Assembly: GCF_002252635.1 (NCBI RefSeq)
Contig: NZ_NQKX01000001.1
Span: forward strand, 124,001 to 188,000
Direction: 5' to 3'
Length of the DNA stretch: 64,000 nt
DNA from: Synechococcus sp. MW101C3
Lineage (GTDB): Bacteria; Cyanobacteriota; Cyanobacteriia; PCC-6307; Cyanobiaceae
Shown here in pieces: positions 9,670 to 17,335 of this stretch. Both the position numbers and the translations under genes were made by a program. The notes under the pieces are model-generated. The model ran no database searches. It was given only the letters and a program-made list of their open reading frames with translations, and was not told the origin of the DNA. Within the stretch, counting starts at the first letter, position 1, and each line of letters opens with the position of its first letter.

Positions 9670-10200
9670 ATGCCCATGGAGCCGAGGAGAACACGCTGCG
9701 GCAGACGGCAACTGACGCTGCAACGGGCCCAGCGGCGCGCACCCTCGCAGGGCTTTCTGATGCCGTTCAGCTTTGCCGCCTCGTTGGTGCTGCTGCTCAG
9801 CGGTCTGTCGGTGCAGACGGCTGCGCTGCAGGCGCGGGCAAGGCTGGAGGCCGACCTCAAGCGCGACCGGGCCGAAGATGCCCTGGCTTCCGCCGCCCAG
9901 CAGGTGGTGGCCCAGCTCAGCGGGCCGTTTGCCTGCCTGCTCCACCTGCCCTCGGAGCGCTGGTCGGGGCAGGTGTGCGCTGAAGGTGTCACAACCTCTG
10001 CGCTCGTGGCCGGATCGGTGGCGGGGCTGTCCTATCGGGTGGTGGCCTGGAAACCCGCCGCTGCTGCGGAGCCCGCCCAGCTGCTGCTGCAGCTCGTCGG
10101 CGAGCAGGGTGCCGATGGCCTGCAACGTCGTTTTGCCGTGAGCCTGGCCGAGGAGGCCGGCGCGGCTCCGATCAGCGCCGTGCGGGGCATGGGGCTGTGA
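9670..10200 (+). CDS. PilX-like minor pilus protein without Glu+5
   Basis: 176 residues. A basic leader of about 28 residues ends at Gly and is followed by FLMPFSFAASLVLLLSGLSV, a hydrophobic helix placed like that of a prepilin but with Ser rather than Glu near +5, so membrane anchoring or cleavage may differ. A helical region rich in Ala and charged residues follows, as in PilX-type proteins encoded at the head of cyanobacterial minor-pilin operons. The stop overlaps the next gene's GTG start (GTGA). Start chosen: ATG at 9670; a shorter form is possible. Confidence 0.6.
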   Translation: MPMEPRRTRCGRRQLTLQRAQRRAPSQGFLMPFSFAASLVLLLSGLSVQTAALQARARLEADLKRDRAEDALASAAQQVVAQLSGPFACLLHLPSERWSGQVCAEGVTTSALVAGSVAGLSYRVVAWKPAAAAEPAQLLLQLVGEQGADGLQRRFAVSLAEEAGAAPISAVRGMGL

Positions 10201-10634
10201 CGCTCACCGAAGCGATCATGGCTGTGGCGGTGTTCAGCCTTTCTGCCACCAGCTCGGTGCGGCTATGGGGCTCCAGTGCCGTCTGGAGCCAGGCCGCCGC
10301 CGCACGCGAGGCCTTGGCCAGCGGCATCGAGGCGGATCTGCTGCGACGCACCCACCACCTGCGGGCGAGCGTGGCGCGCGACCAGCCCGCTCCCGCCTCT
10401 TGCGAAGTGGCGGCGGCATGGATGGTCTCCCGCCTGGCGAGCGGCGCCTCATCCCTGCCGCAGGGCGTGCGCAAGCAGCTGGAGCTGGTTCCGGATGGCG
10501 GTGCCGTGTGGCTGATCTACACCGCTGCCGAGGGGCAGTTGGAACGGCGGCGGTTGTTCAGTGCCGCAGCCCATGGCCTTTGCCCGGTGGTTCCCGAGCT
10601 GCCAGCGATGACGGATCTGGAGGTGGGGGCATGA
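10197..10634 (+). CDS. Pilin-like protein apparently lacking a prepilin leader
   Basis: 145 residues from the GTG at 10197, overlapping the previous stop. The protein begins MTLTEAIMAVAVFSLSATSS, so the initiator Met occupies what would be mature position +1 and Glu falls exactly at +5. No ATG, GTG or TTG lies upstream in this frame before the nearest stop (near 9983), so a normal basic leader is not available in frame. Upstream codons would read GHGA before position +1. Possibilities are a leaderless pilin, a frameshift or small indel at the junction, or an uncommon start codon. The next gene starts in the overlapping ATGA at 10631. The context is a coupled minor-pilin operon. Confidence 0.6.
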   Translation: MTLTEAIMAVAVFSLSATSSVRLWGSSAVWSQAAAAREALASGIEADLLRRTHHLRASVARDQPAPASCEVAAAWMVSRLASGASSLPQGVRKQLELVPDGGAVWLIYTAAEGQLERRRLFSAAAHGLCPVVPELPAMTDLEVGA

Positions 10635-11151
10635 CCCCGCAACGGCCGCAGGGGGGGACACGGTGCTGGAGGGGGTGATCACGGCGCTGATCCTCGCTCT
10701 GCTGGCGGCGCTGGCCCTGCGCGACAGCGGCGAAACGCTGGCCCGCCAGCGGCTGGAGGCGGCGACCCGGCGGATCGCCCTGGCGATCGAGCACGGCCGG
10801 GCGGCTGCTGAGGCCAGCGGCCAACCCTGTGCTCTGGAGCTGGGCGAGCTGGGCTGGCAGGCGCCCACGGGGGGCGAGCTGCCCGGTTGCGCGCAGCCGA
10901 TCACGGGCCTCGATGACGGTGGGCAAGCGGCCGGTGTGGAGCTGAGCCACAACCTGCCCGCCGCCCTGCGCTTCAGCAGCACCGGGCTGGTGCTCGATGG
11001 GGGAACGGTGGTGCTGAGCAGCGAGGGCACGGAGTTGCGTCGCTGCCTGGTGATTGCCCTTCCCCTGGGGTTCGTGCGCCTTGGCCGTTATGTGGGCCCG
11101 GGCCAGGCCCCTCCCGACAGTGCCGCCTGCGGCCCCGACCCCACGCTTTGA
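10631..11151 (+). CDS. FimT/GspH-like prepilin with out-of-frame leader (G7 tract)
   Basis: The ATG at 10631 overlaps the previous stop (ATGA) and encodes MTPQRPQGG before a run of seven G (10651-10657). In the sequence as given that frame ends after about 15 codons, while the pilin body is in another frame, starting at best with GTG at 10663 (162 residues). One extra G, or a -1 slip in the run, joins them as MTPQRPQGG followed by DTVLEGVITALILALLAAL, a textbook prepilin with Glu at +5. The body ends with a FimT-like C-terminal domain. It could be a sequencing indel, phase variation, programmed frameshifting or a recent mutation. The next gene overlaps the stop. Confidence 0.65.
10651..10657 (+). 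repeat. G7 homopolymer between prepilin leader and body
   Basis: Seven consecutive G lie in the codons for the Gly-Gly that would precede the pilin cleavage site. In frame with the upstream ATG they are read as part of CAG GGG GGG ACA; slipping back one base gives GGG GGG GAC ACG and opens the pilin frame. Such tracts are prone to length change and ribosome slippage. Confidence 0.8.
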
Positions 11152-11156
11152 GCCCA

Positions 11157-11849
11157 ATGACGCTGCGTTTGACTCTCTCCTGCGCCCGCCGCCCTGCCGC
11201 GACGCGCAGGGGGTTCGGGCTGGTGGAGATGCTGCTGGCGATGACCCTGGGCCTGGGCTTCTGCGGGGTGGTGATCCAGGCCCTGGTGGGAGAAGGGCGC
11301 CATGCCCAGCAGTTCACCCGTGCCCTGCGCGAACGCGGCAACCAACAGCGGGCGCTGGCGTTGATCCGCAGCGACCTCGTGCGGGCCCTCTCGGTTGCCG
11401 ACGACCCTGCCAAGGGCACCAGCCGTTGTGGCCTGGCTGGACGTACCGCAGTGTTGCGTCTGCACACGCCCGAGGGCACGATTGATTACAGCGTGGGAGC
11501 CGCGCCGAGTGGCATCTGGCAGGGGCGGGTGCTGGTGCGCTGCGGACCCGCCTATGGCCTCCATGGCCAGGTGAACCCCGGCAGCGTGTTCCAGAGCCGA
11601 GTGGTGCTCGACCGTCTTGCTGCTGAAGCCACGCCATGGAAGGGATGCGCCGCCCTGCTGGGGAGACCGGCGGCGCCAGCCGGGGGCCTCCATCCCCACG
11701 ACCTTGCCGGTTCTTCGCGGTTGCCGTTCTCTGCCTGCCTGGATCGCGAGAGCGAGGTGGTTGGCCTGCGGCTGGAGCAGAGCTTTCCGGGCGGAGCGGG
11801 GCGCAGCGAGCAGCGCCTGAGCACGGAGGCGGCGGCCGGAGCGGGGTGA
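11157..11849 (+). CDS. Type IV prepilin-like protein (PilW-type)
   Basis: 230 residues from the ATG at 11157; a TTG at 11148 overlapping the previous stop is an alternative. A 19-residue Arg-rich leader ends in Gly, followed by FGLVEMLLAMTLGLGFCGVV with Glu at +5. The C-terminal region is long, Gly-rich and contains several Cys, as in PilW-like minor pilins. It is the last gene of the coupled cluster 9670-11849, and a PilZ gene follows 37 bp later in the same direction. Confidence 0.75.
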   Translation: MTLRLTLSCARRPAATRRGFGLVEMLLAMTLGLGFCGVVIQALVGEGRHAQQFTRALRERGNQQRALALIRSDLVRALSVADDPAKGTSRCGLAGRTAVLRLHTPEGTIDYSVGAAPSGIWQGRVLVRCGPAYGLHGQVNPGSVFQSRVVLDRLAAEATPWKGCAALLGRPAAPAGGLHPHDLAGSSRLPFSACLDRESEVVGLRLEQSFPGGAGRSEQRLSTEAAAGAG

Positions 11850-11886: not shown

Positions 11887-12351
11887 GTGGGAGGAGACAG
11901 CAACAATCCTCTCCACAGCGAGTCTGCTGGCGAGGGGCTTTCCGACCAGGTGCCACCTCCCCAGCCAGAGGGGTATCTCCCGTCTGACCGCGCCAATGTG
12001 CGCCGCGTCTTGCCGGAGCCATTGAGCGCCATCATCAGCTTCCCGTCCCTGGAGGGCCAGCCCTGGTTCAACGTGGATGTGCTGGATTTGAGCGAAGGTG
12101 GCCTGCGCCTTCAGATCGCCCTGCCTCCTGGCCTCAACCTCGAGAAAGGCCAAGAGGGCGTTATCAGCCTGATCCTTCGGCGTTCAGACCCACCGTGCAT
12201 TTCCAATTTCACAGTGCGCTGGGTCGAGATCAATTCGCTGATCTCGGTGGCAGGTGTGGCCTTTGAGCAGCCGTTGACCCTGCCGGTCTTGCCCTCAGGG
12301 GGCAGCGGCGAAGCGATCCCTGCGGCGAAGCTCTCTGAGCAAACACCCTGA
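11887..12351 (+). CDS. PilZ domain protein (c-di-GMP receptor)
   Basis: 154 residues from a GTG at 11887. Residues about 35-130 form a PilZ domain: both c-di-GMP binding signatures are present, RANVR (RxxxR) near residue 36 and DLSEGG (D/NxSxxG) about 34 residues later. The N-terminal 30 residues are polar and probably disordered. PilZ proteins transmit the second messenger to pilus motors or to exopolysaccharide machinery; the gene follows a minor-pilin operon directly, so pilus control is the natural reading. An EAL phosphodiesterase gene at 36865 could lower the same messenger. Confidence 0.82.
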   Translation: MGGDSNNPLHSESAGEGLSDQVPPPQPEGYLPSDRANVRRVLPEPLSAIISFPSLEGQPWFNVDVLDLSEGGLRLQIALPPGLNLEKGQEGVISLILRRSDPPCISNFTVRWVEINSLISVAGVAFEQPLTLPVLPSGGSGEAIPAAKLSEQTP

Positions 12352-12380: not shown

Positions 12381-12965
12381 TCAGCGGCAACCCGTAGCTG
12401 CATCGGGAATCAGGTTCACCACCCTTGACATCATGGTGACGCCGTCCACCGAGACCGTATAGGTCCACTGCAGTCGGTTGAGGTCGGTGTCGGAGACGGT
12501 GGGGCCCGTGCGGGTGAGGGAAACACCCGGCGGGGCGGTGGGCGGCTCCGGGAAGGCAGCAATCATGCGTTCCGCCATGCCCCCGTCCGGGCAGGCGTCG
12601 CGCTGGTTTTCGGCCGCTGCAAGGGCGGCGCTGCGGCAGGCGCCAGGGGTACCGCCGGGAATGGCCGCCTCGCCACACTCCTCGCCACAGCAGCTGAAGC
12701 GACTGTTGAGCTCGCGGATCAAGGCCAGATCCTGAGCGATGAGGCGCTCCAGCTCATCAGCGTTGTCTATGGGGCGACCAGAGCGGTTGTTCGCCATCAA
12801 CGTGACGGTGGTGCCGCTGACCACGATGGTGATCAGAATGGCTGCCAGCAGAAACTCCATCAGGCTGAAGCCTTCGTTGGCGGTGTCCGCTCCATGACCT
12901 GCCGCGTCAATGAGCCGCTGGCGCCGCATCCTCAGGAGCCGCAACCGCAGGAGGTCTGTGGTCAT
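12381..12965 (-). CDS. Type IV prepilin-like protein (PilV-type)
   Basis: 194 residues from the ATG at 12965; an in-frame ATG at 12932 would give a 20-residue leader, and the frame is open further up to 13052. The leader ends NEG and is followed by FSLMEFLLAAILITIVVSGT, with Glu at +5. The body has a CC pair and further Cys like the prepilin at 981. It lies convergent to the PilZ gene, 29 bp away, and is not in the coupled operon. Probably another minor pilin of the same pilus system. Confidence 0.72.
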   Translation of the reverse strand: MTTDLLRLRLLRMRRQRLIDAAGHGADTANEGFSLMEFLLAAILITIVVSGTTVTLMANNRSGRPIDNADELERLIAQDLALIRELNSRFSCCGEECGEAAIPGGTPGACRSAALAAAENQRDACPDGGMAERMIAAFPEPPTAPPGVSLTRTGPTVSDTDLNRLQWTYTVSVDGVTMMSRVVNLIPDAATGCR

Positions 12966-13293
12966 ACCGGGCCGAAACGTATGAACCTGAAAGATCGGGA
13001 AGAAAGGCGGCAGGAGGGGAGCAGAGATTGGAAATAGCTGAGAGTTGGGCATTGAATGGCTAAGCCCTCCTCAACATAAGCGCGAAAACTTGGTGATGTG
13101 TTCAGCTTGATGTGTTCCGGACACGCAAGCCATCGTGCGCTGATGACGTTGTCGGGCCGGCTTGGATGCCACCAGAATCCTGGCGTCTTCCTTGCTGAGC
13201 GCCATAGCGGGCCCGTAGAGGGACACTTACACTCTCTTCATACTTGGCAGCTAGGCCCGTCCGGCATGAGACGCCCCTCGCCCGGTCCGCGCG
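12966..13293. other. Intergenic region between divergent prepilin and histidine kinase genes
   Basis: About 330 bp between the start of the minus-strand prepilin and the plus-strand kinase. It should hold both promoters. No convincing -35/-10 pair, hairpin or small gene could be assigned by eye. Part may encode a longer N-terminus of the prepilin (frame open to 13052). Confidence 0.4.
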
Positions 13294-16572: not shown

Positions 16573-16794
16573 CAAGGTTTCAGCTCATCCAGGCAAGTTT
16601 GAGGGGCAGGACACAGCTGAAACTCTGCAGATCGTGGGCCTGCCTGCTTCGTGTCATGCTGGCATTTTCTGGGGTGTTCCTTCGTGTGAAGATCTCCACA
16701 TCAAGCCACCAGCCCTCTGCAAGACTCCCCTTTTGGTCGATCCTTTGCTAAGATAAGCATGGTTATTCACCAGCTCAACGCCCCATCCAGGCCC

Positions 16795-17229
16795 ATGAAA
16801 CTCTCTTCCAAAACCCAGCTTCAGCTGATCCGCTCCCTCAATACCCGCCGCGGCATCGCTCGCGCCTTCACGCTCGTTGAGCTGATGATTGTTGTGGCGA
16901 TCGTGGGCATTCTTTCCGCGGTGGCTCTGCCTACCTATCTGAACGCCCGGAACGCCGCTGCCGCCGGCGCCCGCATCGGCGAAGCCATCGGCATTGCCAA
17001 GGAATGTGCCACTGCTGCAGCCTCTGATATTGAAACTGGTGTTACAACTCCTAGCTCTGCAGTGACCCTTGTACAGACTTCAGGATGCACCGGCGGTGGT
17101 TCCGTCACAGCCAGTTTTACCGCTGGCGCTGCAGGTATCAGCTGCTTGGATGACACTTCTGACAGTAAGAGTGCCTCAGCCAAGATCACAGTTTCACCAG
17201 CAGGCGCAATCAGCTGCACCTTCACTTGA
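16795..17229 (+). CDS. Major-pilin-like type IV prepilin (PilA family)
   Basis: 144 residues from the ATG at 16795. An ATG at 16759 is in frame, but a TAAGAT box at 16749-16754 looks like a -10 element and would leave that start without a 5' leader. The 24-residue leader ends in Ala, then FTLVELMIVVAIVGILSAVA with Glu at +5. The helix continues into PTYLNARNAAAAGARIGEA, and a short C-terminal domain carries several Cys. A paralogue with a leader of the same length is at 23752. It is followed directly by a 15-bp tandem repeat and a strong terminator, as expected for a highly expressed monocistronic pilin. Confidence 0.85.
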   Translation: MKLSSKTQLQLIRSLNTRRGIARAFTLVELMIVVAIVGILSAVALPTYLNARNAAAAGARIGEAIGIAKECATAAASDIETGVTTPSSAVTLVQTSGCTGGGSVTASFTAGAAGISCLDDTSDSKSASAKITVSPAGAISCTFT

Positions 17230-17238
17230 TGATCAACA

Positions 17239-17335
17239 GGCCTGCTTACACCAGGCCTGCTTACACCAGGCCTGCTTACACCAGGCCTGCTTACACCAGG
17301 CCTGCTTACACCAGGCCTGCTTACACCAGGCCTGA
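17239..17335 (+). repeat. 15-bp minisatellite (six full copies plus a partial one)
   Basis: The unit GGCCTGCTTACACCA is repeated head to tail six times without visible variation from 17239 to 17328, followed by GGCCTGA. It begins 9 bp after the pilin stop codon and ends about 20 bp before the pilin terminator, so it lies in the 3' untranslated part of the pilin mRNA. Identical copies point to recent expansion by slippage. GGCC within each unit allows weak local pairing. Confidence 0.95.

Follow-up and report, generated by a model that had tools for sequence, protein, structure and literature searches.

In the freshwater picocyanobacterium Synechococcus sp. MW101C3 (genome GC content 66%), a gene for a core minor pilin at the type IV pilus tip is split between two reading frames: the leader and the pilin body meet at a run of seven G but cannot be read as one polypeptide. 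On balance, and with some reservation, we attribute the split to a genuine, recent, private frame-disrupting indel, the G run being its scar or hotspot rather than a regulatory device, and the subunit being lost. The window is the whole analysed stretch of 64,000 nucleotides, and coordinates refer to it unless stated otherwise. The broken gene, here called gene 3, is the third of four genes in a K-I-H-J-type minor-pilin operon, which comprises the following features.

9670–10200, + strand: gene 1, PilX/GspK-like minor pilin (family by N-terminus, position and conservation); leader ending in SQG before FLMPF, without Glu at +5
10197–10634, + strand: gene 2, PilV/GspI-like minor pilin by position; no leader, the GTG start being residue +1, with Glu at +5
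10631–10678, + strand: leader ORF of gene 3; 15 codons, MTPQRPQGGTRCWRG, then TGA at 10676–10678; conserved Shine-Dalgarno sequence GGAGGTGGGGGC; ATGA overlap with the upstream gene
10651–10657, + strand: tract of exactly seven G at the leader/body junction, the site of the frame break
10657–11151, + strand: body frame of gene 3, a GspH/FimT/FimU-type core minor pilin; Glu at +5 encoded by 10669–10671
11157–11849, + strand: gene 4, PilW/GspJ-like minor pilin; leader ending in TRRG before FGLVEM

Genes 1, 2, and 4, which flank gene 3, are conserved in Synechococcus sp. ATX 2A4. N-termini and gene order point to the I, J, and K types for genes 2, 4, and 1, respectively; K-type minor pilins usually lack Glu at +5.

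The frame break is directly visible in the sequence. The ATG at 10631 overlaps the TGA at 10632–10634 of the upstream ORF (10197–10634) as ATGA, and the pilin helix lies in another frame, as an earlier note on this DNA had described and as both the sequence and the ORFs confirm. Gene 3 of the window has no class III leader ending in Gly in frame with its helix. The body frame runs without a stop from 10612 until the TGA at 11149–11151; its earliest possible in-frame start is the GTG at 10663, with no ATG, GTG, or TTG between 10612 and that codon. The earlier note was also right about the run of seven G at 10651–10657. Read in the leader frame it is G-GGG-GGG, a slippery heptamer in phase for a tandem -1 slip. 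The product of such a slip would be QGG followed by DTVLEGVITALILALLAALALRD, with Glu at +5 and Asp at +1, and lengthening the run by one G likewise places Asp at +1.

The body of gene 3 is a real gene, far beyond chance by identity, Pfam, fold, and dN/dS. It shares 81% protein identity with the homologue from Synechococcus sp. ATX 2A4 and scores 24.5 bits for the Pfam GspH domain (PF12019), where the cut-off is 21; of 37 aligned homologues, 36 match this domain with E values no higher than 0.01. The AlphaFold model (pLDDT 90.9) consists of one 51-residue helix and a beta sheet, i.e., the type IV pilin fold, and its top PDB match in Foldseek is Pseudomonas FimU (PDB 4ipu, probability 1.00, E 0.01). 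Gene 3 thus belongs to the GspH/FimT/FimU-type core minor pilins, which form part of the priming complex at the tip of the type IV pilus. The dN/dS value of the body versus ATX 2A4 is 0.23, inside the range of its operon neighbors (0.17–0.49), hence the body was under purifying selection until recently. The break is therefore recent, or not real, or tolerated.

Relatives were represented by 80 named loci from Cyanobiaceae and Prochlorococcus, with one genome per species, and by 20 extra loci sampled from the 231 genomes of the family that scored positive; some contigs of these extra loci overlap the named set. In all 80 named loci the body of gene 3 shares a frame with its own start, Glu at +5 being invariant, and in each of the 20 sampled loci the leader (or start) and the body share one frame and Glu is again at +5. 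A G7 tract within the leader occurs in none of the 80 homologous loci; runs of seven G are present near gene 3 in two of them (L074, L093), where they lie upstream of the start codon and outside the leader. Since about 80 relatives are in frame, the break looks private and is most likely a recent one-off event (or a base error), not a built-in switch. The earlier note had proposed that in-frame relatives without the tract would speak for a private mutation, and this is the pattern seen across the 80 named and 20 sampled loci.

The closest relative is Synechococcus sp. ATX 2A4, one of two other genomes used for the same-genus comparison; in the second, which is 88% complete, no gene 3 homologue was found. 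The ATX 2A4 gene has the same Shine-Dalgarno sequence and ATGA context as the window and is read in a single frame, MKPAQQAG followed by YTLVEG, with no G7 tract. From the ATG to a shared ACACG there are 27 nt in the window versus 25 nt in ATX 2A4, a net difference of +2 that is equivalent to -1. The leader sequences differ too much for the indel event to be uniquely placed, and with one reasonably close relative (81% identity) the age of the break can only be bounded.

Candidate in-frame starts 3–30 codons upstream make 70 of the 80 named loci leader-bearing. The residue at -1 is Gly in 62 of these 70, and the residue at +1 is Phe (50), Met (8), Leu (7), Tyr (3), Ser (1), or Trp (1), never Asp. 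Hence, a slipped or length-changed window product would not be a normal prepilin. The earlier note had expected a perfect prepilin with Glu at +5 from such a slip: the Glu is indeed there, whereas the Asp at +1 takes away the perfection. Its three suggested readings fared unequally as well, the sequencing/assembly indel keeping some probability and the two regulatory ones becoming unlikely given the lack of conservation, the lack of structure, and the Asp at +1.

The first of the latter two is phase variation, in which slipped-strand changes of the G tract would switch the minor pilin on and off within the population. Pilus genes are typical phase-variable targets. The tract in the leader, at seven G, is also just as long as the shortest over-represented G/C tracts considered in a meningococcal survey (PMC5084427). 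Nevertheless, we consider such a switch unlikely: the leader tract occurs in 0 of 80 homologues, the on-state product would carry Asp at +1, other tracts of 7–8 G/C in conserved genes keep their frame, and G7 runs in the window are rarer than in shuffled sequence rather than enriched (9 observed, 31.6 expected). Programmed -1 ribosomal frameshifting at G-GGG-GGG, joining leader and body, is highly improbable. The run is in the exact phase for a tandem slip, but the site is absent even from the closest relative, ATX 2A4, the 80 named and 20 sampled loci being in frame without it; the product would again begin with Asp; and when the 80 and 59 nt downstream of the tract were folded, no structure stood out from shuffles (z 0.12 and 0.88). 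No report of poly-G frameshifts in cyanobacterial pilins was found in the literature searched.

A consensus or assembly error, with the chromosome in frame and the homopolymer or an adjoining base miscalled, is a more serious possibility, though in our estimate still a doubtful one. The break coincides with a G7 tract in a genome of high GC content, the body shows full conservation, and no relative has lost the frame. On the other hand, one added G would give an Asp at +1 unlike any leader-bearing homologue, so that a pure run-length miscall would not restore a normal sequence. Other frame breaks are few: across 268 kb, the comparison of ORFs filtered by codon-position GC to drop shadow ORFs yielded two candidates on the window's side over about 39,000 aligned residues. 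Moreover, 14 other G/C tracts of at least seven nucleotides are spanned by in-frame alignments to ATX 2A4 at identities of at least 66%. A genuine recent mutation is favored over a consensus error because frame breaks are few and these 14 tracts keep their frame, and we infer that the change is present in the DNA. A generally poor assembly was considered and rejected: a comparison of all ORFs gave approximately 20 apparent breaks each way, mostly in GC-rich shadow ORFs, and two remained after filtering.

According to the favored reading, a recent private indel at the leader/body junction would have cut the class III leader off from the pilin body, leaving the G7 tract as its scar or hotspot. 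Translation from the conserved start would end after 15 codons and give no processable prepilin. The strain has thus probably lost the pilus-tip subunit encoded by gene 3, and the coupling to gene 4 may be weakened, with a possible reduction of gene 4 translation. The intact, conserved body could equally mean that gene 3 is still expressed.

The genome carries genes for a prepilin peptidase and a secretin, and no second complete GspH-type gene was found in it. Compensation by an intact paralogue was rejected, the single candidate being a 185-bp remnant of the 3' end of gene 3 on another contig (L016, G000:C3:165177-165361; 79% DNA identity). This remnant adjoins a GGDEF/EAL gene and mobile-element-like ORFs and is possibly the leftover of a horizontally acquired copy. 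Directly 3' of the operon lies a PilZ-domain gene (11887–12351), which suggests c-di-GMP control of the pilus. A further prepilin-like gene, EGFSLMEFLLAAILITIV, with a weak Pfam N_methyl score, is located on the opposite strand (12381–13052, -). A short tandem repeat at 17226–17335, translated as RPAYT or HQACL repeats, directly follows a PilA-like gene (16759–17229).

A separate observation concerns minor pilins that lack a leader altogether. Gene 2 was recognized in 71 loci, including the window, and in 58 of them its start codon (53 ATG, 5 GTG) is the codon for mature position +1, and Glu occupies position +5. Aligning 26 of these leaderless proteins shows no variation at Met1 or Glu5. In L086, L092, and L097 (two Prochlorococcus and one Prochlorococcaceae MAG) an in-frame stop lies 4–6 codons upstream of gene 2, so no leader is possible there. 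The leaderless product may bypass the prepilin peptidase. Among 145 genomes drawn from the class, gene 2 has convincing matches only inside the family; the window protein has no Pfam or NCBIfam match, and comparison of its structure with the PDB gave no clear match. Gene 3 itself lacks a leader in 10 to about 14 of the 80 loci, depending on which weak upstream starts are counted; the start codon is at +1 in L039, L056, L071, L077, L089, L090, L091, L093, L094, and L095, a subset of the picocyanobacteria. In several loci with a leaderless gene 3, gene 2 has Phe at +1 instead (G before FGLTEV), as though the part without a leader had passed from one gene to the other.

Type IV pilin leaders are 6–26 residues long and in bacteria invariably end in Gly (review, PMC4471445). 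A gene 2 start at mature +1 in most of the family is at odds with this rule, under which prepilin peptidase removes the leader, and the literature searched yielded no description of pilins without one. We regard leaderless gene 2 as a stronger lead than the frameshift; whether processing is needed can be tested on it directly.

These proteins also bear on gene 3 of the window, where translation might restart at the GTG at 10663, the G run serving as a Shine-Dalgarno-like site 5 nt upstream, and give a leaderless pilin-like protein. Within the family, this operon commonly encodes minor pilins that lack a leader (gene 2 and part of the gene 3 homologues), the GTG and the G-rich stretch are suitably spaced, and selection on the body looks intact. 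However, the known leaderless members all begin at +1, whereas this GTG is residue +3, with Glu as the third residue of the product, and we find the restart quite unlikely. There is a small probability that the frameshift is, rather than an inactivation, a step toward a leaderless minor pilin made from this GTG and bypassing prepilin peptidase; such a step would mirror gene 2, leaderless throughout the family, and the gene 3 versions of other picocyanobacteria that have no leader.

Returning to the preferred private indel, the case at present is a commonplace break (or base error) in one strain's gene for the pilus priming complex, and it serves mainly to predict that the Synechococcus sp. MW101C3 isolate has lost pilus assembly or DNA uptake. 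The importance would be greater if the gene 3 body were still made, or if tract lengths were mixed, in which case a core minor pilin would be phase-variable in a cyanobacterium.

In comparison with known systems, gene 3 resembles the FimU/FimT/GspH core minor pilins, such as Pseudomonas FimU, in its long N-terminal helix, the Glu at +5 of its relatives, its GspH domain, and its clustering with three other minor pilin genes; it departs from them in that the leader is out of frame with the body and any tract slip would yield Asp at +1. With the orthologue from Synechococcus sp. ATX 2A4 (L018 = G002:C40) it shares high identity, operon order, Shine-Dalgarno sequence, and ATGA overlap, whereas that orthologue has one intact frame with Tyr at +1 and no G7 tract. 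Like homopolymer-tract phase-variable genes, e.g., those of Neisseria, the window has a G7 tract near the 5' end of a gene for a surface structure, but unlike them its tract is not conserved in relatives. Finally, it shares an in-phase slippery-type heptamer with programmed -1 frameshift sites, and differs from them in having neither a stimulatory structure nor conservation.
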